Below, in pieces: positions 12,386-25,874 of a stretch of DNA of 64,000 nucleotides. The stretch covers positions 1,798,001 through 1,862,000 of the forward strand of contig NZ_CP024901.1 in assembly GCF_003343245.1 (NCBI RefSeq), written 5' to 3'. Position numbers and translations under genes: made by a program. Origin of the DNA: Photorhabdus laumondii subsp. laumondii (GTDB taxonomy: Bacteria; Pseudomonadota; Gammaproteobacteria; Enterobacterales; Enterobacteriaceae). The notes under the pieces were generated by a model. The model worked only from the letters and a program-made list of their open reading frames with translations. It was not told the DNA's origin and searched no databases. The stretch's first letter is position 1. Each line of letters starts with the position of its first letter.

Positions 12386-13672
12386 ATGAATTTCAAATCA
12401 CTTGGCTTAAGTGCTGATATTTTGCGTGCCGTTGAAGAACAGGGTTATTCAGCGCCGACACCAATCCAACAACAGGCAATTCCTGTTGTATTAGCAGGTA
12501 AAGATTTATTAGCGAGTGCTCAAACAGGCACAGGTAAAACCGCAGGTTTTACCTTACCCATGCTGCAACGGTTAAATGATTCCCCTATTCAGATGAAAGG
12601 GCGCCGGCCAGTCAGAGCATTAATCCTGACTCCAACTCGTGAATTGGCTGCTCAAGTGGGTGAAAATGTCCGCGACTACAGTAAATACCTCAGACTGCGC
12701 TCTCTGGTTGTTTTTGGCGGTGTCAGTATTAACCCTCAGATGATGAAATTGCGTGGGGGTGTGGATATTTTAGTCGCAACACCGGGGCGGTTACTGGATC
12801 TTGAACATCAAAATGCGGTTGATTTATCCCGGGTAGAAATTTTGGTATTGGATGAAGCTGACCGGATGCTGGATATGGGGTTTATTCATGATATTCGTCG
12901 AGTGCTGAATAAATTACCACCGAAACGGCAAAATTTACTGTTTTCCGCGACTTTCTCTGACGATATCAAAAGCTTAGCCAGTAAGTTATTGCGTGATCCC
13001 GTCAGTGTTGAAGTTGCACGTCGTAACTCTGCTTCTGAACAGATTGAACAGCTTGTTCACTTTGTCGATAAAAAGCGTAAAGGTGAGCTGCTCTCTTTCT
13101 TGATCGGCAGCCGTAACTGGCAGCAAGTTCTGGTATTTACCCGAACCAAACATGGCGCGAACCGTTTGGCAGAACAGTTAAATAAAGATGGTGTAACGGC
13201 TTCGGCTATTCATGGTAATAAAAGTCAGGGGGCGAGAACCCGTGCACTGGCTGATTTTAAAGATGGCCGGATCAGAGTGCTGGTAGCGACAGATATTGCG
13301 GCCCGTGGTCTGGACATTGATCAACTGCCTTATGTGGTGAATTTTGAATTGCCTAATGTCGCTGAAGATTATGTCCACCGTATTGGTCGTACTGGCCGAG
13401 CAGATGCAACAGGGCAGGCACTTTCTCTGGTCTGTGTTGATGAGCATAAGCTGTTGAAAGATATTGAGCGTTTGTTAAAACGGGAGATTCCCCGTATGGC
13501 AATTCCCGGTTATGAGCCAGATCCAACGATCAAGGCTGAACCTATCCAAAACGGTCGTCAGGCACGTGGCGATAATCGGCAGAAAAATAGCCATCGCCGT
13601 TCTGGGGCACCTTCGCGTCAGCGTAGCAGCAGTCATGATGTATCCCATAAATCGCCTAACGTCAGAGGTTAA
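12386..13672 (+). CDS. rhlE: ATP-dependent RNA helicase RhlE
   Basis: DEAD-box RNA helicase involved in ribosome maturation and RNA turnover. All core motifs are present: Q motif (TPIQQQAIP), motif [21 protein letters not shown] ([11 protein letters not shown]), SAT (LLFSATFS) and motif [10 protein letters not shown]. The C-terminal tail after about residue 370 is basic and low-complexity ([14 protein letters not shown]), as in RhlE. The 428-residue length is normal. dusC follows after 3 bp, so the two are probably cotranscribed; this adjacency differs from E. coli. Confidence 0.97.
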
Positions 13673-13675
13673 TCG

Positions 13676-14608
13676 ATGCGGGTTTTACTGGCTCCGATGG
13701 AAGGTGTGCTGGACTCTTTGGTTAGGGAACTTCTGAGTGAAATCAATGAGTACGATTTGTGCATTACGGAATTTTTACGGGTTGTCGATAGCCTGTTGCC
13801 GGTAAAATCTTTTTATCGACTTTGTCCTGAATTACGTAACCAAAGCCGGACACCATCCGGCACATTGGTACGGATTCAGCTTTTGGGTCAATATCCACAG
13901 TGGCTGGCGGAAAATGCGGCACGAGCGATTGAATTAGGATCCTATGGGGTTGATTTAAATTGCGGTTGCCCGTCAAAAACGGTCAATGGTAGCGGTGGCG
14001 GAGCAACGTTGCTAAAAGATCCTGAACTGATTTATCAGGGAGCGAAAGCGATACGTGAAGCGGTACCTGCTCATTTGCCTGTGACGGTTAAGGTTCGCTT
14101 GGGTTGGGATAGCGGTGATCGGCAATTTGAAATTGCCGATGCGGTACAACAGGCGGGTGCGACGGAAATGACAGTTCATGGGCGAACCAAAGAGCATGGT
14201 TACCGAGCGGAGCGTATTAACTGGCAAGCGATTGGTGAAATTCGTCAACGTCTCTCTATTCCGGTTATCGCTAACGGTGAAATTTGGGATTGGCAAAGTG
14301 CGCAGAATTGCCAGAGTGTGACAGGCTGCGATGCGGTCATGATTGGGCGGGGTGCGCTTCACGTTCCTAATTTGAGCCGAGTGGTGAAATATAACGAACC
14401 AAAAATGTGCTGGCAGGACGTTGTTCAACTATTGCAAAAATATATCCGATTGGAAAAGCAGGGTGATACCGGGCAATATCATGTTGCTCGGATTAAACAG
14501 TGGCTTGGTTATTTGCGTAAAGAATATGAAGAAGCAACAATGCTGTTTGAAGAGATAAGAAAGTTAAAAACATCTGCTGATATAGCGCATGTGATCTCTT
14601 TGGTATGA
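13676..14608 (+). CDS. dusC: tRNA-dihydrouridine(16) synthase DusC
   Basis: FMN-dependent enzyme that reduces uridine 16 in the D-loop of tRNAs. The 310-residue TIM-barrel protein begins [19 protein letters not shown], nearly identical to E. coli DusC. It has the catalytic cysteine in [18 protein letters not shown], the HGRTKE segment, and the FMN-phosphate loops VIANGEIWD and MIGRGAL. It lies directly after rhlE, and its stop codon touches the first of two tandem ERIC elements. Confidence 0.97.
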
Positions 14609-14735
14609 TATACCCGTCATCTTTCAAGCTGCCTCTTTGTTGGCTGCACTCGTTCACCCCGGTCACATAGTTATCTATGCTCCCGGGGATTCTCTCCCTT
14701 GCCGTCGCGATGCATCTTGAAATCTATTGGGTATA
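14609..14735. repeat. ERIC/IRU repeat, full-length copy 3 (first of tandem pair)
   Basis: 127 bp starting right after the dusC stop codon (tatacccgtcat) and ending gggtata. Its last 2 bases are shared with the start of a second, truncated copy. Confidence 0.93.
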
Positions 14736-14836
14736 TACCCGTTATCTTTCAAGCTGCCTCTTTGTTGGCTGCACTCGTTCACCCCGGTCACATAGTTATC
14801 TATGCTCCCGGGGATTCACTCCCTTGCCGTCGCGAT
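14734..14836. repeat. ERIC/IRU repeat, truncated copy (second of tandem pair)
   Basis: About 103 bp identical in plan to the upstream copy, but it stops at ccgtcgcgatgg and lacks the last 24 bp (catcttgaaatc to gggtata). The break lies 5 bp from the stop codon of the GNAT gene of the microcin operon, so it may mark an island boundary. Confidence 0.9.
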
Positions 14837-14841
14837 GGTAG

Positions 14842-15384
14842 TTAGTTATTTCTATTCCACTCATCACGAGTTATTTCCCATGTTTCCGAAGGCATTCTTC
14901 CGCTAACAAAGTCTCTATTTTCTAGTCTTATTAATCGCATACCACTTTTAATTGATATTTTCTTTGAGGCAATATTGTCGCTGGATTTAGGCGCTCTGAG
15001 TACATTGCGATTTAGGGTATTAAACCAAAAATCAGTAACGACTTGGACCGCCTCAGTCATAAATCCGTTCCGGTGCCATTGTGGGTCTAGCCAGAAACCT
15101 CTATTATTATTTTCTTGATCATATAGCGATATCATTCCTATTATTATTGATGGTTCATCCCTCCTTCTTATAGTCCAAAACCATGCATTTCCTTTTGCCA
15201 TTGATGGTAGCGCGATCTTATTTATATATTCCAGGGCACCATCATCTGGGTAGGGCCACGGGGTGCTTGCTACAAGATAACGAACAATTTCCCACTGAGG
15301 AAAGATCTTTTGAATTTGTATATAATCCTTACTTTCTAAAGGATGTAATATTAATCTTCTGGTTTCTAACTTTTGGGGTTCCAT
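14842..15384 (-). CDS. RimJ/RimL-type GNAT acetyltransferase, probable microcin C self-immunity protein (MccE C-domain-like)
   Basis: 180-residue GNAT protein of the RimL/Acetyltransf_3 type: LETRRLILHPLESKDYIQIQ at the start, WTIRR and IIGMISLYD core strands, and the acetyl-CoA loop in FWLDPQWHRNGFMTEAV. In E. coli the C-terminal domain of MccE is a RimL-like GNAT that acetylates processed microcin C and gives self-immunity; here the domain stands alone. The start at 15384 follows ggaaaccaac and is the family start; a longer open frame to 15426 is unlikely. It overlaps the end of the MFS gene by 19 bp and is the last gene of the mcc-like operon. The immunity role is inferred from family and position. 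Confidence 0.85.
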   Translation of the reverse strand: MEPQKLETRRLILHPLESKDYIQIQKIFPQWEIVRYLVASTPWPYPDDGALEYINKIALPSMAKGNAWFWTIRRRDEPSIIIGMISLYDQENNNRGFWLDPQWHRNGFMTEAVQVVTDFWFNTLNRNVLRAPKSSDNIASKKISIKSGMRLIRLENRDFVSGRMPSETWEITRDEWNRNN

Positions 15385-16562
15385 GTTGGTTTCCTTTTGT
15401 GATGTTTTTTTATAAAGAAGTAGCAAAGGATGTTAATTGAAATAATTAATGATATCAATATAGGGAAATATATCCATCCAAAATTCTCAGTGATTAACGC
15501 GATTAACGGTATCACTATTACTGCTATCAGCCTTGTAATTGTAGATATGAATGAGTCAAATGTTGATCTTAATTCTGATGGTATTATTTGGTGGTAGTTG
15601 GATCTTAATGATGTTGTCATTACTTGGTTTGCTCCAAACATAATAATCGTCGATATGGTGGTTATATGGTTCTTTTCATATACACCATAAATGCACGTTA
15701 AGCTACATACCAATAGGATTACTATACTATAAAGATGGTTTTTGTTGTTGTCTTCATTTTTTGAGATTATCCATCCTGATATTGATTGAGATAATAAAAT
15801 TGCAGAAAATACAATCCCGAAAAAGATGCTGACACCAAGCTCTTCTATGATGTAATTTATTAATGGTTGCCAATATTGGAGGATAATTTGGAAATATAGC
15901 AGAGAGGATGATAGAGAAATAGATGTTATGAAAAGATAATTTTTATTATCTTTCAGCATTGCTATTGATGTTTTTATTTCTTTAAGGAATGATAAGTTTG
16001 GTTGTCTATTTTTAGTAATTGATTTTGGTAGGAACCATGAAAGGCTTACAGATAGAATAATGCATCCAGAGCCTGCTATTAGCCATACTAATCTGTCATC
16101 AAAATCAGTTATTAGAGATCCTATTATTGAGAATATAGCCATGAATAGAAATTGTAATTTATTGCTTTCTCCCAATATTTTGTGGGTGTCATTATCGTTT
16201 AATGAGTTATCTATTAGGTATGAATAGAAAACCCCTCCTAATATAGTTAAGGATATTGAATTAAATATTTCTGCGATATAAAATAAATATTTTGAATCTG
16301 CAATGCCCGTTATTATTAGCCATACACCACCAAAAGTGGTCGATAAAATAATAGCGAATTTCCTACCAAATTTGTCAGCTAGATATGATGATGGAATATC
16401 AAATAAAAAATATATAAATGATTGGATAGTCTTCATCAATCCAATATCAACTAGAGTAAGACCATGATTTAAGATAAATATTGTAGATGTTGCACCCACT
16501 AACATCCGCATGGAATTAAATATGACATTATAATATATTATAATTTTTGTTTTTGAGAGCAT
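15366..16562 (-). CDS. MFS exporter, MccC-like, of the microcin C-like operon
   Basis: 398-residue membrane protein with about 12 hydrophobic segments; it carries the MFS loop pattern SSYLADKFGRKFAIILS after helix 2. Size and position match MccC, the E. coli microcin C exporter that also contributes to self-immunity. The start lies inside the end of mccB (25-bp overlap), and the 3' end overlaps the GNAT gene, so the three are translationally coupled. The base composition is strongly AT-rich like the rest of the operon. I recognise the MFS superfamily directly; export of the peptide-nucleotide is inferred from the operon. Confidence 0.87.
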   Translation of the reverse strand: MLSKTKIIIYYNVIFNSMRMLVGATSTIFILNHGLTLVDIGLMKTIQSFIYFLFDIPSSYLADKFGRKFAIILSTTFGGVWLIITGIADSKYLFYIAEIFNSISLTILGGVFYSYLIDNSLNDNDTHKILGESNKLQFLFMAIFSIIGSLITDFDDRLVWLIAGSGCIILSVSLSWFLPKSITKNRQPNLSFLKEIKTSIAMLKDNKNYLFITSISLSSSLLYFQIILQYWQPLINYIIEELGVSIFFGIVFSAILLSQSISGWIISKNEDNNKNHLYSIVILLVCSLTCIYGVYEKNHITTISTIIMFGANQVMTTSLRSNYHQIIPSELRSTFDSFISTITRLIAVIVIPLIALITENFGWIYFPILISLIISINILCYFFIKKHHKRKPTWNPKS

Positions 16563-17596
16563 ACGTCACACTTATCATTTTTATGTATTGATTGTTCTTC
16601 AATTTTTATGCTTAGTGAGTGTATTCCGATTCTTTTATTAGTACTGAGAATGTTACCAAAGCTTCCAAGGTATTTCATAATATCCCCAAAAGCATAAGAT
16701 GCTGCGACACCATTAACGCTAGGGAATGTTGCTGCTTTAAAGTCTTTGTTTACATTTTCTATATGCTCTAAAATGTCATCTTTTGGGTGATACTCTGGCA
16801 TAATGTTTTGACATTTTATGCAGGATGTTTTATTTGGTATATAAAATGGTCCAATAACGGAGATATCATTAATATAACCAATGTTTATATATGCTTGTCG
16901 TTCTTTAACACAGAATTCATTAATCCAGTTAATTAATTCAAACGGGTGGTCGGCTGAAACTATGAATAAATCAGAACGAGGTATTTTATATAAATCATTA
17001 ATTGATGATATGAACATATTAATTGTTTCTATATTTGTTTCAGAATTCCTTTTATTTAATTCTCTCTCTAAAACTTCTGTTTTTTTTCTCCCTATATCAT
17101 TTTGTGAAAAAAGAACTTGTCTTGTTAAGTTGCTTAGCTCTATTGTGTCATCATCAATAAGTGTAATTTTTCCTACCCCTGATGTAGACAGCAGATATGA
17201 TATATGGTTTCCAATCCCACCACATCCAATTATAGTAACTGTTGATTTCTTTATTCTATCTTGAACTAAACTAGGTATTGCCCCTGCATATCTATAAAAT
17301 AAATAGTTCCTACTATATCTGTCATTTTGATTGTATTCATTAAAATCCATCAGAGCATGGTTTTCATCTAAGAATGAGATTATTTCTTTTATTTCATTAT
17401 CACATATCTCGGGTAAATTTGATTTAATTGTTTCTGTGATTTCTTTTTCGTGAGTCGGTAACTTCAAAAGGCTAGAAACCTTAACTAAATTCTTCCATTT
17501 TAAATAATTTTCTATAATTTGTTGTTTCGAACCAACTCCAAAAATCCCACCTGATTTATATTTCCCTACTTGAATATAATTTGCTATTTTCTTCAT
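16538..17596 (-). CDS. mccB: Microcin C-like adenylyltransferase MccB (E1-like)
   Basis: E1/ThiF-fold enzyme that converts the C-terminal Asn of a heptapeptide to an isoAsn-AMP phosphoramidate. Resemblance to E. coli MccB covers the whole chain: the N-terminal peptide-clamp region (YKSGGIFGVGSKQQIIEN), the nucleotide loop GCGGIGNHISYLLSTSGVG, LSNLTRQVLFSQNDIGRKKTEV, SADHPFELINWIN, ATFPSVNGVAA and NKRIGIHS. Two CxxC pairs (CIKC and CDVC) are the zinc site. The ATG at 17596 (352 residues; E. coli MccB has 350) has agagg close upstream and aligns with the E. coli N-terminus; an ATG at 17620 is also in frame. It lies 74 bp downstream of the 7-codon mccA. It is distinct from the true MoeB at 43.5 kb. 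Confidence 0.94.
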   Translation of the reverse strand: MKKIANYIQVGKYKSGGIFGVGSKQQIIENYLKWKNLVKVSSLLKLPTHEKEITETIKSNLPEICDNEIKEIISFLDENHALMDFNEYNQNDRYSRNYLFYRYAGAIPSLVQDRIKKSTVTIIGCGGIGNHISYLLSTSGVGKITLIDDDTIELSNLTRQVLFSQNDIGRKKTEVLERELNKRNSETNIETINMFISSINDLYKIPRSDLFIVSADHPFELINWINEFCVKERQAYINIGYINDISVIGPFYIPNKTSCIKCQNIMPEYHPKDDILEHIENVNKDFKAATFPSVNGVAASYAFGDIMKYLGSFGNILSTNKRIGIHSLSIKIEEQSIHKNDKCDVCSQKQKL

Positions 17597-17638
17597 GATG
17601 TCCTCTGTTTCTTTATTCATAATTTTGTCTCTTTTGTG

Positions 17639-17661
17639 GCGGGGTATTTAACATACCCCGC
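17639..17661 (-). promoter_or_regulatory. Hairpin between mccA and mccB
   Basis: Perfect 9-bp inverted repeat gcggggtat/ataccccgc with a 5-nt loop, 9 bp after the mccA stop codon. No T tract follows on the mcc strand. In the E. coli mcc operon a stem-loop in the same place causes partial termination and stabilises an abundant short mccA transcript, so a similar role in setting the precursor-to-enzyme ratio is likely. Confidence 0.8.
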
Positions 17662-17670
17662 TGAATTTTT

Positions 17671-17694
17671 TTAGTTAGATCCACTGCTAATCAT
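17671..17694 (-). CDS. mccA: Microcin C-like heptapeptide precursor MccA (MISSGSN)
   Basis: A 7-codon gene, atg att agc agt gga tct aac taa, encoding MISSGSN. The E. coli precursor MccA is MRTGNAN: same length, Met1 and the essential C-terminal Asn, with Gly in the second half. A near-ideal Shine-Dalgarno (aggagga at 17701-17707) sits 6 nt upstream of the ATG, and a sigma70-type promoter about 30 bp further up. A perfect hairpin follows and then mccB in the same direction. The gene is below the threshold of gene finders. The start is unambiguous because no other codon fits the ribosome binding site. The predicted product is MISSGS-isoAsn-AMP. Confidence 0.92.
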   Translation of the reverse strand: MISSGSN

Positions 17695-17700
17695 CTCGAT

Positions 17701-17707
17701 TCCTCCT
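17701..17707 (-). promoter_or_regulatory. Shine-Dalgarno of mccA
   Basis: aggagga with 6-nt spacing to the mccA ATG. It is one of the strongest ribosome binding sites in the window and the main evidence that a 7-codon frame is translated. Confidence 0.85.
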
Positions 17708-17730
17708 ATTTTGTTGGGTAATAATGAATT

Positions 17731-17759
17731 TTACTACCACTGTGTGATTTTTTTGTCAA
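17731..17759 (-). promoter_or_regulatory. Promoter of the mcc-like operon
   Basis: A perfect -35 hexamer ttgaca (17754-17759) is separated by 17 bp from the -10 candidate tagtaa (17731-17736), which is preceded by tgg, an extended -10. Predicted transcription start is near 17724, giving a leader of about 30 nt before mccA. Confidence 0.75.
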
Positions 17760-17775
17760 GAAAAAATTTCATTTG

Positions 17776-17791
17776 TGTGATAATGGTTACG
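17776..17791 (-). promoter_or_regulatory. Possible CRP site upstream of the mcc promoter
   Basis: On the plus strand tgtga-taatgg-ttacg matches 8 of 10 positions of the CRP consensus (tgtga-n6-tcaca). Its centre is about 60 bp upstream of the predicted start, a usual class I spacing; the E. coli mcc promoter is also CRP-dependent. The evidence is a single imperfect match. Confidence 0.4.
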
Positions 17792-17841
17792 ATAAACGAT
17801 TTTGGCAGAGGAATGACTCATTAGTAATAAGGTAGGGCAGT

Positions 17842-17870
17842 AAATGGAACCTTTAATCAAGGTTCCATTT
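17842..17870 (-). terminator. Hairpin after lipase gene 1
   Basis: Perfect 12-bp inverted repeat aaatggaacctt/aaggttccattt with loop taatc, 34 bp after the lipase stop on the minus strand. It separates the lipase gene from the mcc promoter. The same hairpin with compensatory changes follows each of the other three lipases. Confidence 0.7.
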
Positions 17871-17904
17871 GGTTTAAATTAAAGCAAGAGGCAATACGAT
17901 GAAA

Positions 17905-19011
17905 TTATTGGATATTATCTTCATCTTGAATAATAGATGAGAAAAGTTTTCTAATATTGCGAGATTGACCATCGTTAATGACAACAATATCATAATCAGT
18001 TGGTGGATTAGCACGATCATTAACTACAATAAAACTCATGCCGTACTCTTTGGCATAAGCATCAATATGTTGAAGTACGAGTTTTTCAATTAAACCTGTA
18101 GAAGGTTTTAAATCAGGTGCAGTAAAAGGTAAATCAGGCGTAAGTTGAGTGTAATTCTTATCTTTAACGACTGAAATAAAACCGTTAACAATTAAAGTTG
18201 ATATTGGATAGAGAACCTTGATTTCTTCTAATCCTTTTACGCTCCAGGCTAGGGTAACGATATCTTTACGATTATGGACCCGGAGAAAATGACTTTCATA
18301 GCTAGATAGTAATGTTCCATTAAAAACAGATTCACTATAGGATGCAAAAACATCATTACCGGCAGTTGGGGCAGCAAAGGAGGAAATATGAATACGAATA
18401 TTATTGTTTCCTTTATCAATATAACGTCTCTTTAAATACAGACCAAGCGTAGAGGCCATTACACCGCCTAAACTATGTCCCGTAAGAGTAATATTATGTA
18501 CTCCTTCTTCCAGAGCAATTTTATCAATTGCCTCAATCAATGATTCTCCATAACCGGGAGGGTTATTGCTCTTTATTTGGTTGATAACATAGTCTAAAGT
18601 TATATGGGTTCCTTTTGAAATTTTAGCGTCTTTGGGGGCTTTTGAATCCCAAATTGACCAGTTTTCAGTTGTGCCTACATTGAAATTCTCATCAAACCAG
18701 TTCGTCATGGACCATGAACCACGAATAACGATTCGATAATCATTTGGATTTTTGAGATCTTTTACAATGAATAAAACGTGATCATCTTTTTTATCTGTAA
18801 CGCTTGTTTTATTATTAACACTACCGACACGAAAAACAGCAGGTCCCCAAATGATAGAGAATCTATTTGCTGTCGCTTTACTATTTGCTAATGATTTTTG
18901 AATATTTTCTGAAACGATAGCCGGTTCTGGTTGATTCGTTATTATACTTCCCGAGTTAATAATAAAGCCTAACGCAAGATTTATTTTTTGATCTTCAAGA
19001 GAAATTGTCAT
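17905..19011 (-). CDS. Class 3 lipase family protein, tandem copy 1
   Basis: 368-residue alpha/beta-hydrolase of the fungal-type class 3 lipase family. The nucleophile elbow is GHSLGG with Ser180; the likely Asp is in HNRKDIVTLAW and the likely His in QHIDAYAKEYGMSF near the C-terminus. The VIRGSWS segment at about residue 95 corresponds to the oxyanion strand. No signal peptide or membrane segment is visible, so the protein is cytoplasmic or uses a leaderless route. The start at 19011 (MTISLEDQKIN) matches the paralogues; the longer frame to 19023 uses TTG. It is the most downstream of four paralogues on the minus strand. The substrate is unknown; triglyceride or phospholipid is plausible in an insect pathogen. 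Confidence 0.85.
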   Translation of the reverse strand: MTISLEDQKINLALGFIINSGSIITNQPEPAIVSENIQKSLANSKATANRFSIIWGPAVFRVGSVNNKTSVTDKKDDHVLFIVKDLKNPNDYRIVIRGSWSMTNWFDENFNVGTTENWSIWDSKAPKDAKISKGTHITLDYVINQIKSNNPPGYGESLIEAIDKIALEEGVHNITLTGHSLGGVMASTLGLYLKRRYIDKGNNNIRIHISSFAAPTAGNDVFASYSESVFNGTLLSSYESHFLRVHNRKDIVTLAWSVKGLEEIKVLYPISTLIVNGFISVVKDKNYTQLTPDLPFTAPDLKPSTGLIEKLVLQHIDAYAKEYGMSFIVVNDRANPPTDYDIVVINDGQSRNIRKLFSSIIQDEDNIQ

Positions 19012-19431
19012 TTTTGTTTCCAATTTTTAATATAATGAATGCTGATCTGATGTGTTAACGCTTAAACACCAATGATCAATACTTTGGGTTTTTATTTAAA
19101 TAACAGAGTGAAAGTTAATAATAATCTTTAAATCTGTTAAATGAGAGTATATAATTTTTTAAAGTTATTTTATTTAACAAAATAAATTATCTATTATGAA
19201 CTTTAAAATAAGTGACAAAAATTATGCTATGCCTTTGTAAGATTATATTAGCATTGGTAGTGATAACGTGAAGGATGTAGCTATGGAAAATAATTTATAT
19301 TGGTATCTACAAAAGTGAGTGATAGTGAATTGCTGTAATTAGTGATAGGCAGGGAAAAATAATTTATTGCAATTAATGGAGCCTTTAATAAAGGCTCCAT
19401 TTAAATCAAATATATACATAATAAGATAACG
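19012..19431. other. Intergenic module between lipase copies 1 and 2
   Basis: AT-rich, no gene. It holds a block (about 19085-19210, with gttaataataatctttaaat and ctgttaaatga) that recurs in similar form upstream of the other lipases, so promoter and leader appear to have been duplicated with the gene. The hairpin of copy 2 lies at its end. Confidence 0.55.
19375..19401 (-). terminator. Hairpin after lipase gene 2
   Basis: Perfect 12-bp inverted repeat aatggagccttt/aaaggctccatt with loop aat, 30 bp after the stop. Compared with copies 1 and 3, an A:T pair is replaced by G:C on both arms. Confidence 0.7.
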
Positions 19432-20562
19432 TTATGTAATATCGATTTTACCTTTGGTTAGAGACTCGAAGAGATCAATAATCCTTTCGGATAGGCTATC
19501 ATTAACCACAACGATATCGTGATCATTCGGCGTCACTGGAGCATTCTCAGTTCGAATGAAACTCATGCCATAGCCTTCGGGATATGCATCGATATGTTGA
19601 TAACCTATCATTTTAGATAAGTTGTCAATGGTGCCTAGAGTCTTTGTAATAGTAAAAGAGCAATCTGGAAAGAGCTGGGTGTAATTTTTATCGAGGACAA
19701 AAAGAATAACAGCATCAACAAGTAATTTTATTTCTATATGTGGATAGATATCCTGAATTTTATTCAAGTCTTTGATAGCCCATGCTAAGGGAACGATATC
19801 ATGGTTATTATGAATTCTCAGAAAATGACTTTCATAAACGTTAGGGCTTAATGTTCCTTTAAAAACAGCGTCAGAATAGGAGGCGAAAATATCATTGCCG
19901 GCAGTTGGGCCTGCGAAGGAGCAAGCGTGAATACGTATATTGTTGTTGTTGATGTAGCGCTTTTTAAGATATAAACCAATAGTAGAAGCGAGTAAACCAC
20001 CCAAACTATGCCCCGTGACGGTAATATTCAGTATCTTATCTTTCCCTTCTTCTGCGATAATTTGTTGAAGAGCCTCGATTAGCGATAGTGAGTCGGTATC
20101 CTCATTATTAGGTTTGTCCTTATCAATAGGTTTGCCATTAATAAGCGTGTTTAATGCTAAGTCTGTTCCGTGGGAGATCTTAGCGCCTTTAAATTCTTGA
20201 GGGATATCTGTGTCCCACTTTGACCAGTCTACAGTTTTAAATACACAGAGATCTTCATCAATCGCATTAATCTTAGACCAGGTTCCTCGAATAACAAGGC
20301 GATAATCATTTGGATTATTTTTATTTTTCACAATCATGACAACGTGATCATATTTTTTGTCATGGTGTTTTTCCTTAATATTGAACACCTCCGGTCCCCA
20401 ACAGATAGAGAATTTATTTGCCGTTGTCTTACTGCTGTTAAGTGATTTTTTAATATCAGATTTAATGGTTTCTATTTCGTCTGGTTCGCCGTTAATTTCT
20501 CCAGAGTTAATAATAAGGCTTAACGCGAGATTTAATTTTTGATCTTCACAAGATATAACCAT
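19432..20562 (-). CDS. Class 3 lipase family protein, tandem copy 2
   Basis: 376-residue paralogue of the neighbouring lipases, starting MVISCEDQKLNLALS. Nucleophile elbow GHSLGG with Ser186, Asp in NNHDIVPLAW, His in QHIDAYPEGYGMSF. It is the most divergent of the four: it carries extra residues before the elbow (a KPNNEDTDSL segment in place of SNNPPGYG). The start at 20562 follows ggagagtaaaa and matches the paralogues; the upstream frame to 20616 is unlikely. The triad is intact, so it is probably active. Confidence 0.84.
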   Translation of the reverse strand: MVISCEDQKLNLALSLIINSGEINGEPDEIETIKSDIKKSLNSSKTTANKFSICWGPEVFNIKEKHHDKKYDHVVMIVKNKNNPNDYRLVIRGTWSKINAIDEDLCVFKTVDWSKWDTDIPQEFKGAKISHGTDLALNTLINGKPIDKDKPNNEDTDSLSLIEALQQIIAEEGKDKILNITVTGHSLGGLLASTIGLYLKKRYINNNNIRIHACSFAGPTAGNDIFASYSDAVFKGTLSPNVYESHFLRIHNNHDIVPLAWAIKDLNKIQDIYPHIEIKLLVDAVILFVLDKNYTQLFPDCSFTITKTLGTIDNLSKMIGYQHIDAYPEGYGMSFIRTENAPVTPNDHDIVVVNDSLSERIIDLFESLTKGKIDIT

Positions 20563-20932
20563 TTTTACTCTCCATTTTTCATCTGGTAAATGTTGATCTG
20601 ATGCTTTGGCTAACATATCTAGGGTTTAATTTTTTTGAGTCTTTCGTTTAAATAAAAAATATAGTTAAGTTTAAAGTTAATAATGAATTTTGAATCTGTC
20701 AAATGTGTGGAGAGGATTTTTTGATATTATTTTATTTGGTAACATGTAAATTATTTATTATGAAATTAAAGATGGATGATAAAATGAGGTGAAAAATAAT
20801 TCTACAAAAATACCATTACTTATTTGAACGGTTAGATAAGTTAATTTGTATATAATTCTGTTTATGGAAAGTCATTTATTGCAATGAATGGAACCTTTAA
20901 TAAAGGTTCCACTTATGTGATAAATAATAAGG
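20563..20932. other. Intergenic module between lipase copies 2 and 3
   Basis: AT-rich, no gene. It contains the duplicated upstream block (aaagttaataatgaattt, gaatctgtcaaat, then ttttttgatattattttatt), which is also found upstream of copy 3, and the hairpin of copy 3. Confidence 0.55.
20887..20912 (-). terminator. Hairpin after lipase gene 3
   Basis: Inverted repeat tggaaccttt/aaaggttcca with loop aat, 21 bp after the stop; the same family as the other lipase hairpins. Confidence 0.68.
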
Positions 20933-22051
20933 TTATGTAATATTGATTTTATCTTTGGTTAGAAACTTGAAGAGATCAATAATACTTTCGGATAGGCTAT
21001 CATTAACTACAACAATATCGTAATCAGTCGGTATATTTGAATTATCATCAATGGTGATGAAACTCATATCATACTCTTTGGTATAGGCATGAGTATGTTG
21101 ATTGCCAATATTAGCCAGTAAATTGTCAAACGATGTTATTGGTGAGATTGGAATCTGTGAATGAATAGGGAAATCTGGGAAAATTTGCGTGTAATTCTTA
21201 TCAAGGACAGAAAGGATAAGACCATTAATTGTGACAGTTAACACGGGATAGATAGCTTTAACTTCCTCCAAACCTTTTATATGCCAGGCTAGGGGAACCA
21301 CATCTATACTATTATGAATTCTCAGGAAATGACTTTTATAACCGGCTACTGATATGTCATTGAAAATAGATTCGGAGTAGGATGCGAAAGCATCATTACC
21401 CGCAGTTGGGCCTGCAAAAGCACAAACATTAATCCGAATATTATTGTTTCCTTTGTCAAGATATCGTCTCTTTAGATATAAACCAATGGTAGAAGATAGT
21501 ACACCACCCAAACTGTGTCCTGTGATAGTAATATTTTGTATCCCTTCTTTCAGGGCAATTTTATCGATCGCATCAATAAGCGATTCTCCATAACCCGGAG
21601 GATTGTTGCTTTTCATTTGATTAATAATATAGCCTAATGCCATGTCAGTTCCGTAGGCTATCTTGGCATTTTCAGGTGATCTTGAATCCCATCGTGCCCA
21701 ATCTTGAGTTTTACAGACAATAATATCTTCATTAAGCCAGTTAATATCGGACCATGATCCCCGAATAACCACGCGGTAGTCATTTGGATCATGGCGATTT
21801 TGCGCAATGAATAGAACATGATCGTCCTTTTTGTCTATAACGCTTTTTTTCACATTAACGTCGTCAACGCGAAACACCGCGGGGCCCCAGATGATAGTGA
21901 ATTTATTTGCTGTTGCTTTACTGTTTTCTAATGATCTGTGGATATTTTCCGAAACAATGCTCGGTTCTGATTTGCTAGTTTTGATTCCTCCAGAGTTAAT
22001 AACGAAGCTGAGCGCGAGATTTATTTTTTGATCTTCACGAGAAATAGTCAT
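20933..22051 (-). CDS. Class 3 lipase family protein, tandem copy 3
   Basis: 372-residue paralogue starting MTISREDQKINLALSF, with ggg and agtaaaa upstream of the ATG. Elbow GHSLGG with Ser180, Asp in NSIDVVPLAW, His in GNQHTHAYTKEYDMSF. It is closest to copy 1 over the central region (SNNPPGYGESLIDAIDKIAL) and to copy 2 at the C-terminus (VVNDSLSESIIDLF), a mosaic pattern that suggests gene conversion among the copies. An ERIC element is inserted 43 bp upstream of the start codon. Confidence 0.85.
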   Translation of the reverse strand: MTISREDQKINLALSFVINSGGIKTSKSEPSIVSENIHRSLENSKATANKFTIIWGPAVFRVDDVNVKKSVIDKKDDHVLFIAQNRHDPNDYRVVIRGSWSDINWLNEDIIVCKTQDWARWDSRSPENAKIAYGTDMALGYIINQMKSNNPPGYGESLIDAIDKIALKEGIQNITITGHSLGGVLSSTIGLYLKRRYLDKGNNNIRINVCAFAGPTAGNDAFASYSESIFNDISVAGYKSHFLRIHNSIDVVPLAWHIKGLEEVKAIYPVLTVTINGLILSVLDKNYTQIFPDFPIHSQIPISPITSFDNLLANIGNQHTHAYTKEYDMSFITIDDNSNIPTDYDIVVVNDSLSESIIDLFKFLTKDKINIT

Positions 22052-22093
22052 TTTTACTCCCTATTATTTCATGTAATCAGTGTTAATGTGAGG

Positions 22094-22220
22094 TATACCC
22101 GTTATCTTTCAAGTTGCTTCTTTGTTGGCGGCACTCTCTCACCCCGGTCACATAGTTATCTATGCTCCCGGGGATTCGCTCCCTTGCCGCCGCGATGCAT
22201 CTTGAAATCCGTAGGGTATA
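22094..22220. repeat. ERIC/IRU repeat, full-length copy 4, in the lipase 3 leader
   Basis: 127 bp (tatacccgttat to gtagggtata). It lies between the lipase 3 start codon and the upstream block shared by the lipase copies, so it was inserted after or during the duplications and may now be transcribed as part of the 5' leader. Confidence 0.93.
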
Positions 22221-22645
22221 TTGGTTTAAATATCAAGATTTAATTCTTTTGCTCTTCCATTTGGATAAAAACAGAATTTAACTTAAAGTTAATGATAACT
22301 TTCAAATCTGTCAAATAAGTACATGGGGTTTTTTGATATTATTTAATTTAACAAAAATATAAATTATTTATTTATAAATTAAAAGTAAATGATTGGGGTT
22401 ATATATTGAATAATTACATGTTAATATTATTGCTATCTTTTGTTATTATATATATTACTTAATGGTAGTGATATGTAAATATCTTTGAGATTATCTCTGT
22501 GAATAATATTTTTGGGAATAATTATAAATTGGTGATATTCTAAATGATATATGTAAAAGTGATCTTATTATTATGTTTAAATAATTTTAGTTTAATGGAG
22601 CCTTTGCAATAAGGCTCCATTGAATTGAGATAAAATATAATAAAT
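22221..22645. other. Intergenic module between lipase copies 3 and 4
   Basis: AT-rich, no gene. It contains the shared upstream block (aaagttaatgataact, aatctgtcaaata, gttttttgatattatt) and the hairpin of lipase 4 near its end. Confidence 0.55.
22594..22621 (-). terminator. Hairpin after lipase gene 4
   Basis: Inverted repeat aatggagcctt/aaggctccatt with loop tgcaat, 24 bp after the stop. It carries the G:C version of the variable pair, like copy 2. Confidence 0.7.
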
Positions 22646-23770
22646 TTATGAGATATTAATATTGTTATCAGGCAGAGATATCCGTAAGAAATAAGCGACG
22701 ATATCTTGAGATAGATTACTATTAATAACCACAAGATCATCAATAGGTGGTTGAGTACCGTCATTAACCTCCACTAAATTCATGCCATATTGGTTGGCAT
22801 AGGCTTTAATATGTTGAAAAACAACTTGCTTATTGAGATCCAGTTCTGCAATAGGTGCTGTAAAAGGTAAATCTGGTGTGAGTTTGGTGTAACCTTTATC
22901 TTGCACGAGAAGAACAATCTTTTTAAATCTGTCAATTAGTTTCTCATCTAATTTAATTAATGGTTCATAGATAGTTGGGATTTTTGCTAATCCATCCAGA
23001 TTCCAAATGAGGGAAATAACATCTTTACGATTATATATCCTTAAAAAATGGCTCTTATAGCTAGTTGCTGACGTGTGGTTGAAAACAGATTTAATGTAAG
23101 AGGCAAAAACGTCATTACCGGTATTTGGGTTAGCAAAAGAACAAACATGAATACGAATATTGTTATTCCCTTTATTAAGGTATAAGCGTTTTAAATATAA
23201 TCCAAGGGTAGAGGCGAGAATACCACCTAAACTGTGCCCGGTAATGGTAATATTATGTATGCCTTTTTCCGAAGCAATTTTATTAATTGCGTCAATAAGT
23301 GATTCTCCATGACCAGGAATATTGTTACTTTTTACTTGATTAACAATATAGTCTAATGCTATGTGAGTTCCATAAGAGATCTTAGCGTCTTTAAACTCTT
23401 CCGGGATATTTTGATCCCAAAGTGACCAATTTACGGTTTCGTGTACAGCAAAGTTTTCAACCTGCCAGTTAACATCAGACCATGATCCTCGGATAACGAT
23501 GCGATAATCATGGGGAATTTTGCGATTTTTTACAATGAATAAAACGTGGTCGTCCTTATTATCTTTACTGTTTTTTCCATTATCAACACGAAAAACAGCG
23601 GGCCCCCAAATAATAGAGAATCTATTGGCAGTTACTTTACTCTTTTCCAATGATGCTTGAATGTTTTCCGCAACCATAGTCGGTTCTGGTTTTTCGGTTA
23701 TTATACTTCCAGCACCACTAATAAAGCTGAGCGCGAGATTTATTCTTTGATCTTTAAGAGAAATAGTCAT
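22646..23770 (-). CDS. Class 3 lipase family protein, tandem copy 4
   Basis: 374-residue paralogue starting MTISLKDQRINLALSF. Elbow GHSLGG with Ser180, Asp in NRKDVISLIW, His in FQHIKAYANQYGMNL. A segment at about residues 275-300 (IYEPLIKLDEKLIDRFKKIV) differs from the other copies. Strong ribosome binding site (ggagagtaaaa) before ATG 23770. It is the most upstream gene of the four-gene array on the minus strand; each gene has its own hairpin, so they may be expressed separately. Confidence 0.85.
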   Translation of the reverse strand: MTISLKDQRINLALSFISGAGSIITEKPEPTMVAENIQASLEKSKVTANRFSIIWGPAVFRVDNGKNSKDNKDDHVLFIVKNRKIPHDYRIVIRGSWSDVNWQVENFAVHETVNWSLWDQNIPEEFKDAKISYGTHIALDYIVNQVKSNNIPGHGESLIDAINKIASEKGIHNITITGHSLGGILASTLGLYLKRLYLNKGNNNIRIHVCSFANPNTGNDVFASYIKSVFNHTSATSYKSHFLRIYNRKDVISLIWNLDGLAKIPTIYEPLIKLDEKLIDRFKKIVLLVQDKGYTKLTPDLPFTAPIAELDLNKQVVFQHIKAYANQYGMNLVEVNDGTQPPIDDLVVINSNLSQDIVAYFLRISLPDNNINIS

Positions 23771-24217: not shown

Positions 24218-24340
24218 TATACCCTATAGATTTCAAGATGCATCGCGGCGGCAAGGGAGTGAATCCCCGGGAGCATAGATAACTATGTGACCGGGGTGAG
24301 TGCAGCCAACAAAGAAGCAAATTGAAAGATAACGGGTATA
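24218..24340. repeat. ERIC/IRU repeat, copy with small deletion
   Basis: 123 bp from tataccctatag to aacgggtata. It lacks about 4 bp in the arm (gtgagtgcagcc instead of gtgagcgagtgcagcc). It sits 32 bp from the left end of the insertion sequence. Confidence 0.92.
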
Positions 24341-24480: not shown

Positions 24481-25308
24481 TTATTTTCGCTTCGCGGGCA
24501 TTGACTGGCTCGCCCTCCAGAGATAAAAACAACAAAGCATCGCGACCAGCAAGGCTATCTTCTTGATATTTTGGGCAGTTGCCGCCAAAAGACACTGTAT
24601 TTGCACCTTCTGCAACCCGCGAAAATGGGCATAACGGTGCCCGTGATGTTGCTTCGCATCCGCAAAACTGCGCTCTATTGTTTCCTTTCGTCGCTTGTAA
24701 ACTTTTTTACCCCATTCCGTTAGCCGGTTTTCTCTGGCCTGCTCTTTACTGGCCTCCCAGATATGACGGGTTATCGTTTTTCCGCCTTTCGCGTGCGTGC
24801 AGGCATCACGCTGCGGGCAACACTGGCAGATAGCCGCCGGGGCCTGATAATGCCGGTATCCCTGACGGTCGGTTGTGGTATAAATCAGTTTTTCTCCCTG
24901 CGGGCAGACATAACAATCCTGTAGCTGGTCATAGGTGAAATGTTTCTTCTGAAAGGTATTTGGTCCCTTATTCGGCCGGCGATAACCTATGATGGGGATA
25001 ATGCCTAACTGTTCCGTCAGATAACAAACCGGGGCCGTAAAATAGCCCGCATCCAACCCAACCGCGAGGGGATTGAGAGCAAAACGCTCTAACTGACGCG
25101 TCAAACGCTTGATAAAAGGCTGGCTGTCGTGGACATTACCCGGTGTGGCGTAGGTATCGGTGATAATACCGACTTGCCCATCCACGGTACGGTGGTCAAG
25201 GTAAAAGAACCCCCTGGGTTTGTTGGTCCGGTGCATAAACCCGCTTTCCGGATCGACGGTACTGACCTTCGTCTTTCTCTGCCGTTCCTTTAGGGCTGGC
25301 TTCAGGCT
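24481..25308 (-). CDS. IS1182-like transposase, C-terminal part (-1 frame)
   Basis: Continuation of the transposase in the -1 frame after the A7 run. It carries the catalytic second half: FFYLDHRTVDGQVGIITDTY, GLDAGYFTA, a cysteine-rich insert (CYVCPQG, CQCCPQRDAC) and the Glu-containing KETIERSFADAKQHHGHRYA helix. It has no credible independent start at the junction; the first ATG at 25236 would omit part of the domain. Together with the upstream frame it gives a full-length IS1182-type protein, so it is made by frameshifting or is broken. Confidence 0.85.
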   Translation of the reverse strand, partial: SLKPALKERQRKTKVSTVDPESGFMHRTNKPRGFFYLDHRTVDGQVGIITDTYATPGNVHDSQPFIKRLTRQLERFALNPLAVGLDAGYFTAPVCYLTEQLGIIPIIGYRRPNKGPNTFQKKHFTYDQLQDCYVCPQGEKLIYTTTDRQGYRHYQAPAAICQCCPQRDACTHAKGGKTITRHIWEASKEQARENRLTEWGKKVYKRRKETIERSFADAKQHHGHRYAHFRGLQKVQIQCLLAATAQNIKKIALLVAMLCCFYLWRASQSMPAKRK

Positions 25309-25874
25309 TTTTTTCCAGCTGCCGCCCGGTCTTGAGTGACGGCTTTATCCAGTGCGTCAACATAGGCGCCGGGGGGAACCGACCGCATGACATTCTCCGA
25401 TTTATGCGGATTGGCACTGGCTTTCAGGTGGGTGCTGTCGGTATAGAGTACGTGTCCGCCCACAAATCCTTTGGCTATCGCCTGTTCAACAATGTGGTCA
25501 AAAATCTGTTGGAAGACCGCGGTATGATTGAAACGGCGGCGGCGGTTCTGGCTCAGGGTTGAGGCATCAGGGACCTTTTCTGTCAGTCCGAGGCGCAGAA
25601 ACCAGCGGTAAGCCACATTAACCTGAATTTCCTGTACCAGACGGCGTTCACTGGGGACGCCAAACAAGTAGCCGAGTAACATCATTTTAATCAGCATGAC
25701 CGGATCGATAGCAGGACGGCCATTATTGTGGCAATACAACGGGGCGACTAATTCGCGGATAAATTCGAAATCAATGGCAGCATCGACTTGACGGACCAAA
25801 TGATTTTTAGGGACCAGCTCGTCAAGCGAGAGCGTTTCTGGCGGGAAAGTCTGGAGAGGGGGGGGTCTTAACAT
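25302..25874 (-). CDS. IS1182-like transposase, N-terminal part
   Basis: 190-residue N-terminal portion: LDELVPKNHLVRQVDAAIDF, then the DUF772-type DPVMLIKMMLLGYLFGVPSER segment and the first catalytic Asp in HVLYTDSTHLKASAN. It ends at a TGA immediately after an A7 run (25308-25314), where the codons gga aaa aaa form a potential -1 slippery site a-aaa-aaa. A slip there joins it to the downstream frame without loss. It could equally be a simple frameshift mutation. Confidence 0.85.
   Translation of the reverse strand: MLRPPPLQTFPPETLSLDELVPKNHLVRQVDAAIDFEFIRELVAPLYCHNNGRPAIDPVMLIKMMLLGYLFGVPSERRLVQEIQVNVAYRWFLRLGLTEKVPDASTLSQNRRRRFNHTAVFQQIFDHIVEQAIAKGFVGGHVLYTDSTHLKASANPHKSENVMRSVPPGAYVDALDKAVTQDRAAAGKKA

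Follow-up and report, generated by a model that had tools for sequence, protein, structure and literature searches.

The precursor peptides (MccA) that go with the major clade of MccB enzymes are mostly 7 residues long, with Met and Asn conserved and the other positions variable, and the genes mccABC are expected to be enough by themselves for a microcin C cluster (PMC6495379). RimL was reported to acetylate processed microcin C (McC) (PMC3817062, PMC10926693; further literature on immunity and RimL: PMC7157772, PMC4964394). Recruitment of microcin C immunity from standalone genes, or its return to them, was raised as an unchecked possibility (PMC9239234), and for MccB17 the gene mcbG and an mcbF orthologue occur without the cluster (PMC10926693). 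Here we describe a predicted microcin C-type operon with a heptapeptide precursor gene in a 64,000-nt stretch of Photorhabdus laumondii subsp. laumondii (NZ_CP024901.1, positions 1,798,001–1,862,000), referred to below as the window, which is part of one 5,687,677-base contig.

A predicted microcin C-type operon in Photorhabdus

A preliminary description of this DNA had named a 7-codon gene, a hairpin, an MccB-like enzyme, an MFS protein and a GNAT protein on one strand, and all of these parts were found, the four genes with open frames. The mccA, mccB, MFS and GNAT genes and the hairpin occupy the minus strand at 14842–17759 (Table 1); mccB overlaps the MFS gene by 25 bp, and the latter overlaps the GNAT gene by 19 bp. 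One conserved promoter-like element is predicted to precede the four genes. Very probably, the four genes form an operon of the microcin C type, whose predicted role is to produce and export a heptapeptide-adenylate antibiotic and, likely, to neutralise it. This interpretation of product and action is sequence-based and follows from homology to Escherichia coli microcin C. The microcin C reading already proposed in the preliminary description is well supported by the MccB homology, the mccA pattern, the hairpin and the exporter. Judged by its gene content, the operon is a new member of the established microcin C family and comes near the minimal gene set, mccABC. Among named organisms, Photorhabdus bodei is the closest at this locus; the related-locus search of genome contigs returned one locus.

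With E. coli microcin C (ATCC 25922 plasmid NZ_CP009074.1, locus L010) the operon shares a 7-codon Asn-ending mccA with AGGAGG, MccB at 46% identity and an MFS gene on the same strand. The E. coli cluster differs in having mccD, MccE, mccF and the precursor MRTGNAN and in lying on a plasmid, whereas the Photorhabdus operon has MISSGSN and a separate RimL-type GNAT and is chromosomal. Within the interval from dusC to the lipase genes, to which the search was confined, no frame for mccD or for the decarboxylase half of mccE was found, and mccF (S66 family) was found in 0/12 genus genomes. The full mccABCDEF set of the E. coli-type aminopropylated microcin C is not present at the Photorhabdus operon. 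Two genomes of the same GTDB family, G748 and G765, have mccABCDE clusters that also share a 7-codon precursor frame with AGGAGG, MccB (45–46% identical to the Dickeya query P0002) and MFS; these clusters differ by mccD and by a long frame resembling mccE, the C-terminal part of which is GNAT-like (by eye).

MccA precursors and the hairpin

A pattern of AGGAGG, 5–9 nt, ATG, five codons, AAY and TAA had two matches in the whole 5.69-Mb genome, one of them being mccA, and the reversed-pattern control had 0. The other match encodes MNSIWIN (G000:C1:3286829-3286867). The strong Shine-Dalgarno sequence, N-terminal Met, C-terminal Asn and length of mccA agree with the microcin C rule, which allows 7 (8) codons (PMC6495379).

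A search for short Asn-ending frames ahead of mccB, suggested in the preliminary description, was run on genomes. A 7-codon ATG frame ending in Asn was found upstream of mccB at 6/6 loci whose upstream region was examined, and of the 30 plasmid records with an mccB match one was among these six. The peptide MISSGSN occurs in the window and in P. bodei, with one synonymous change between the two. The other precursors were MISIASN (Photorhabdus genome G138), MRTGNAN (E. coli ATCC 25922, where 7-codon frames alone were looked for), MDHSMNN (G748) and MEHTTNN (G765). In the window, P. bodei and G138, the heptapeptide was the sole short Asn-ending frame in the 174–210 nt searched. In G748 and G765, five and two further Asn-ending frames, respectively, were present in 400 nt, and AGGAGG stood only ahead of the heptapeptides. 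The Shine-Dalgarno sequence of mccA in G138 is GGGAGGGG. Clusters with mccB, MFS and mccD-/mccE-like frames were recorded at loci L054 and L055, with precursors MDHSMNN and MEHTTNN. On the E. coli plasmid, mccA (MRTGNAN; L010 7891-7914) is not in the PLSDB gene table, and the mccB frame is annotated from 7914, where mccA has its last base; this is probably upstream of the real MccB start.

A microcin C carrier of the sequence MISSGSN was not found in print. We do not claim that the cluster is unpublished, since Table S1 of PMC6495379 possibly covers Photorhabdus. No literature match linking microcin C and mccB with Xenorhabdus was found, and the available part of PMC11241378 mentions Photorhabdus twice, both times about lumicins.

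The hairpin between mccA and mccB had a folding energy of -17.1 kcal/mol (z -5.93), and 0/200 shuffles were as good. It has no U-tract on the mcc strand and was terminator-like on the plus strand only (scan).

MccB and the exporter

In a phmmer search with MccB, the E. coli MccB structures (3h5n/3h5a) came first, with E 5e-105 over residues 12–357, a long way ahead of MoeB and E1 enzymes at 3e-16. The protein comprises both the N-terminal part and the E1-like domain of a full-length MccB, and the 46% identity to E. coli MccB extends over 96% of its length; no NCBIfam family was found at or above its cut-off. Translation of mccB probably starts at 17596 (Shine-Dalgarno AGAGGA) and not at 17620 as in the list of open reading frames (ORFs), because the former start has the better Shine-Dalgarno sequence and the relatives P0002, P0003, P0005 and L007 begin at the equivalent Met. 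P0005 is an intact MccB relative from P. heterorhabditis with the UniRef name 'MccB protein'. A second ThiF/MccB-like frame of the same genome, L003 (G000:C1:2580309-2581232; open frame of 376 aa), is 27% identical to MccB over residues 61–355 and is possibly another enzyme for ribosomally synthesized and post-translationally modified peptides.

The MFS protein had 22% identity to E. coli MccC over 235 residues (E 1e-11 for the single comparison), and its closest relative outside the genus among the 7 found was a Dickeya MFS protein (48%). By homology it takes the place of the exporter in an mccABC cluster, and its transport function is predicted.

The GNAT gene

The GNAT gene probably starts at the ATG at 15384 (Shine-Dalgarno AAGGA) and not at the listed TTG at 15426, because this internal ATG has the better Shine-Dalgarno sequence. 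An Acetyltransf_3 domain, a RimL-like fold and catalytic Ser and Glu place the protein in the RimJ/RimL type. Its residues S140, E167 and W43 align with S553, E572 and the adenine-stacking Trp 453 of MccE. In structural alignments with RimL and MccE2 it was 13–14% identical and had no equivalent of F466. RimL-like immunity conferred by this GNAT is plausible, because the two catalytic residues (Ser and Glu) and the Trp that stacks on adenine are kept and RimL is reported to acetylate processed McC. Pairwise ratios of nonsynonymous to synonymous divergence (dN/dS) of GNAT genes were 0.16–0.38 (six intact genes, 15 pairs), as expected of a functional enzyme, including where mccABC is absent.

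The dusC site across the genus

Among the 12 genus genomes, dusC was found in 12, mccB in 3 and the GNAT gene (E <= 1e-30) in 8. Promoter, mccABC and GNAT gene follow each other at the dusC site in the window and in P. bodei. Four genomes (G233, G300, G298, G301) have the promoter and an intact GNAT gene there with no mccABC; G295 has the promoter and a truncated GNAT (99 residues), also with no mccABC, and in G303 the GNAT gene is a fragment that contains a stop. In G296, G297, G302 and G138, dusC leads straight into a shared hairpin and the lipase genes, without promoter or GNAT.

Between the promoter and the GNAT gene, the leaders of G298 and G301 contain 72 and 68 nt, respectively, that align with the end of the window's MFS gene (Table 1). 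The local alignment scores were 95 and 97, against null maxima of 42 and 35 (200 shuffles), and ahead of the match both have an apparent relic of the mccA Shine-Dalgarno region (by eye). The better reading is that in G298 and G301 mccABC was deleted and the promoter and GNAT gene were left; it is preferred because the scar corresponds to the part of the window's MFS gene that encodes the last hydrophobic region, present also in the other MFS proteins aligned (by eye). The lost segment would have extended from the ribosome-binding site of mccA to the last exporter helix. The matches in G233, G300 and G295 (scores 40, 47 and 45; null maxima 33, 30 and 32) are shorter and lie mainly in the GNAT leader, and therefore these three alone show no deletion.

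Divergence and distribution of mccABC

Synonymous divergence (dS) between the window and P. bodei was 0.041 for mccB (residues 91–360) and 0.060 for the MFS gene, with dN of 0.005 and 0.012, respectively. The surrounding genes gave higher dS: 0.255 for GNAT, 0.268 for dusC, 0.142 for the DEAD-box gene (12386-13672) and 0.124 for lipase, the gap to the last two being only two- to threefold. Because the dS of mccABC is below that of its neighbours, the cassette and most of the promoter were probably exchanged between species more recently than the neighbouring genes. In the dusC-region tree, the window and G295 were paired (97/97) and P. bodei joined them (100/98). The position of G295 looks like loss, yet recombination is as likely, because the G295 leader resembles that of G300 (by eye). 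Since mccABC and GNAT have different histories by dS, independent losses were not counted from this tree. The GNAT tree (6 rows) had no supported fork.

At E <= 1e-60, mccB was found in 5/392 family genomes with the Dickeya query and in 2/295 with the window query; at the same threshold it was found in 1/369 class genomes, namely the window's own. On plasmids, 30/72,556 records matched at E <= 1e-30, 27 of them from Escherichia.

The surroundings of the operon hold several further features. Similar copies of the 105-nt repeat that lies between dusC and the GNAT gene occur in the window (22094-22220, 24218-24340) and in relatives. Four tandem lipase-like paralogues with a GHSLGG motif (by eye) lie on the minus strand at 17905-23770, and blastn comparison placed related copies at the corresponding site of the other Photorhabdus genomes examined. 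An apparent transposase gene is divided between two frames at 24481-25874 (by eye).

Table 1. Features of the operon and its borders (positions in the window)
Feature	Position	Strand	Remark
-35 element TTGACA	17754..17759	-	Conserved in 7 genomes: window, P. bodei and five Photorhabdus genomes without mccABC
Presumed -10 element TAGTAA	17731..17736	-	17-nt spacer; from leader alignment; TAATAA in some relatives; poor vs consensus
Shine-Dalgarno AGGAGG of mccA	17702..17707	-	7 nt ahead of ATG; read in sequence
mccA, 7 codons (MISSGSN), stop included	17671..17694	-	ATG ATT AGC AGT GGA TCT AAC TAA
Hairpin between mccA and mccB	17639..17661	-	9 pairs, loop of 5
mccB, predicted E1-like peptide adenylyltransferase	16538..17596	-	ORF open from 17620; 17596 likelier start
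mccC-like MFS exporter gene (predicted)	15366..16562	-	Pfam MFS_1
3' end of MFS gene (last hydrophobic stretch)	15386..15457	-	Left as a scar in G298 and G301, which lack mccABC
RimJ/RimL-type GNAT acetyltransferase, predicted immunity gene	14842..15384	-	
Two copies of 105-nt repeat between dusC and GNAT	14608..14837	.	Further copies in window and relatives
Hairpin common to four promoter/GNAT-less genomes	17841..17871	.	Outer border of mcc/GNAT block
Low-divergence tract, window vs P. bodei	about 15386..17820	.	Mismatch map, identities, dS

Discussion

By analogy with E. coli, the ribosome would make formyl-MISSGSN, MccB would link AMP to the C-terminal Asn via a stable N-P bond, and the MFS protein would export the peptide-AMP product. 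A target cell would import this product and trim the peptide, freeing an aspartyl-adenylate mimic that blocks aspartyl-tRNA synthetase. As there is no mccD or mccE in the operon, the product would be without the aminopropyl group. The GNAT would most likely acetylate the trimmed toxin, like RimL and MccE.

Several observations weigh against this interpretation. The single promoter of the preliminary description was borne out in part: TTGACA is kept in 7 genomes, and the -10 element is weak. The consensus promoter scan did not list the mcc promoter and found no excess of sites (19 against 18.8 expected). The GNAT protein had also been likened to the GNAT domain of MccE, and as a statement of homology this found no support in sequence comparison with E. 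coli MccE (BLASTP E 0.67; hhalign probability 28.6%); the position of MccE F466 is K56 in the Photorhabdus protein. Relatives of the GNAT are present in four genomes of other genera that have no mccB. The second Photorhabdus cluster (G138, L007/L009) resembles the operon in its precursor MISIASN, its hairpin, and its mccB (55% identical) and MFS (45% identical) genes; it differs in lying at another chromosomal site with no adjoining GNAT, and its genome has no GNAT match. A single history for mccABC and GNAT is contradicted by dS of 0.04–0.06 vs 0.255, so that they were not one unit in the latest exchange. Finally, in P. bodei LJ24-63 a frameshift lies in the first third of mccB, and in G138 the gene, of which P0005 is an intact relative, has an early in-frame stop; this indicates poor upkeep in the genus.

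Some of these points would be expected if mccABC alone were the microcin C cassette and the GNAT a bystander, a housekeeping RimJ/RimL-type acetyltransferase sharing its promoter. We take this possibility seriously without favouring it. Besides the divergent dS, the absence from the G138 cluster and the missing BLASTP homology to MccE, relatives of 56–64% identity are widespread, with copies on plasmids too. Against a bystander, in the 12 genus genomes the GNAT gene is confined to the site at dusC that has mccABC or, in two genomes, had it, and the four genomes without GNAT are also without the promoter. The residues for catalysis and adenine stacking are conserved, the operon has no further known immunity gene (MccG- and MccH-like genes were not searched for), and the genus has no S66 gene. 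It is unlikely that the cluster is decaying and its expression has ceased: the broken mccB genes and the rarity in the family (5/392 genomes) would fit such decay, but in the window each of the four frames is open, and most changes in mccB and the MFS gene relative to P. bodei are synonymous.

Insertion of mccABC into an older promoter-GNAT leader, in place of deletion from the mcc-less relatives, appears quite improbable. At the dusC site promoter-GNAT is commoner than mccABC (6 intact GNAT genes vs 2 mccABC), and mccABC is younger by dS; however, the old leader would have to supply by chance both the Shine-Dalgarno region of mccA and, in frame, the exporter's last hydrophobic stretch of about 24 codons. 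All nine aligned MFS proteins extend into a hydrophobic C-terminal stretch (by eye), and for G298 and G301, where the leader retains sequence like the end of the MFS gene, insertion was set aside. Very unlikely indeed is another product of MccB, cytidylate or other ThiF-type, rather than a peptide-adenylate. ThiF-like enzymes do vary (PMC12250964), but the identity to E. coli MccB covers nearly the whole enzyme, and a heptapeptide precursor goes with the major MccB clade (PMC6495379). We therefore retain the microcin C-type operon as the preferred interpretation.

The loci without mccABC are comparable to the orphan MccB17 immunity genes in that a likely immunity gene is kept without toxin genes. 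They differ in showing a deletion scar and a kept promoter, and they concern microcin C, with the immunity role predicted. A broader scheme, which we put forward tentatively and regard as doubtful, is that mccABC is a swappable toxin cassette, excised from the mccA ribosome-binding site to the exporter's end so that the promoter drives the GNAT gene purely for resistance, and spread among species by recombination over the same flanks. The GNAT would then be a new class of microcin C immunity gene, and a reservoir of resistance would exist in Klebsiella, Enterobacter, Pantoea and Yersinia, where it has relatives that have gone unnoticed.

The operon is ordinary in kind, its peptide is new within our literature search, and its fourth gene is unusual. 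If the product is made, an insect-associated bacterium would be the source of a peptide-nucleotide antibiotic with a MISSGSN carrier; as uptake depends on the carrier, natural sequences of this kind are of use. Most interesting is the genus-level picture, in which the toxin cassette appears to be lost and exchanged while the promoter and the GNAT gene stay. Since comparable loci with and without the cassette exist, scars can be seen and there is a single candidate enzyme, Photorhabdus makes the idea of standalone microcin C immunity genes testable.

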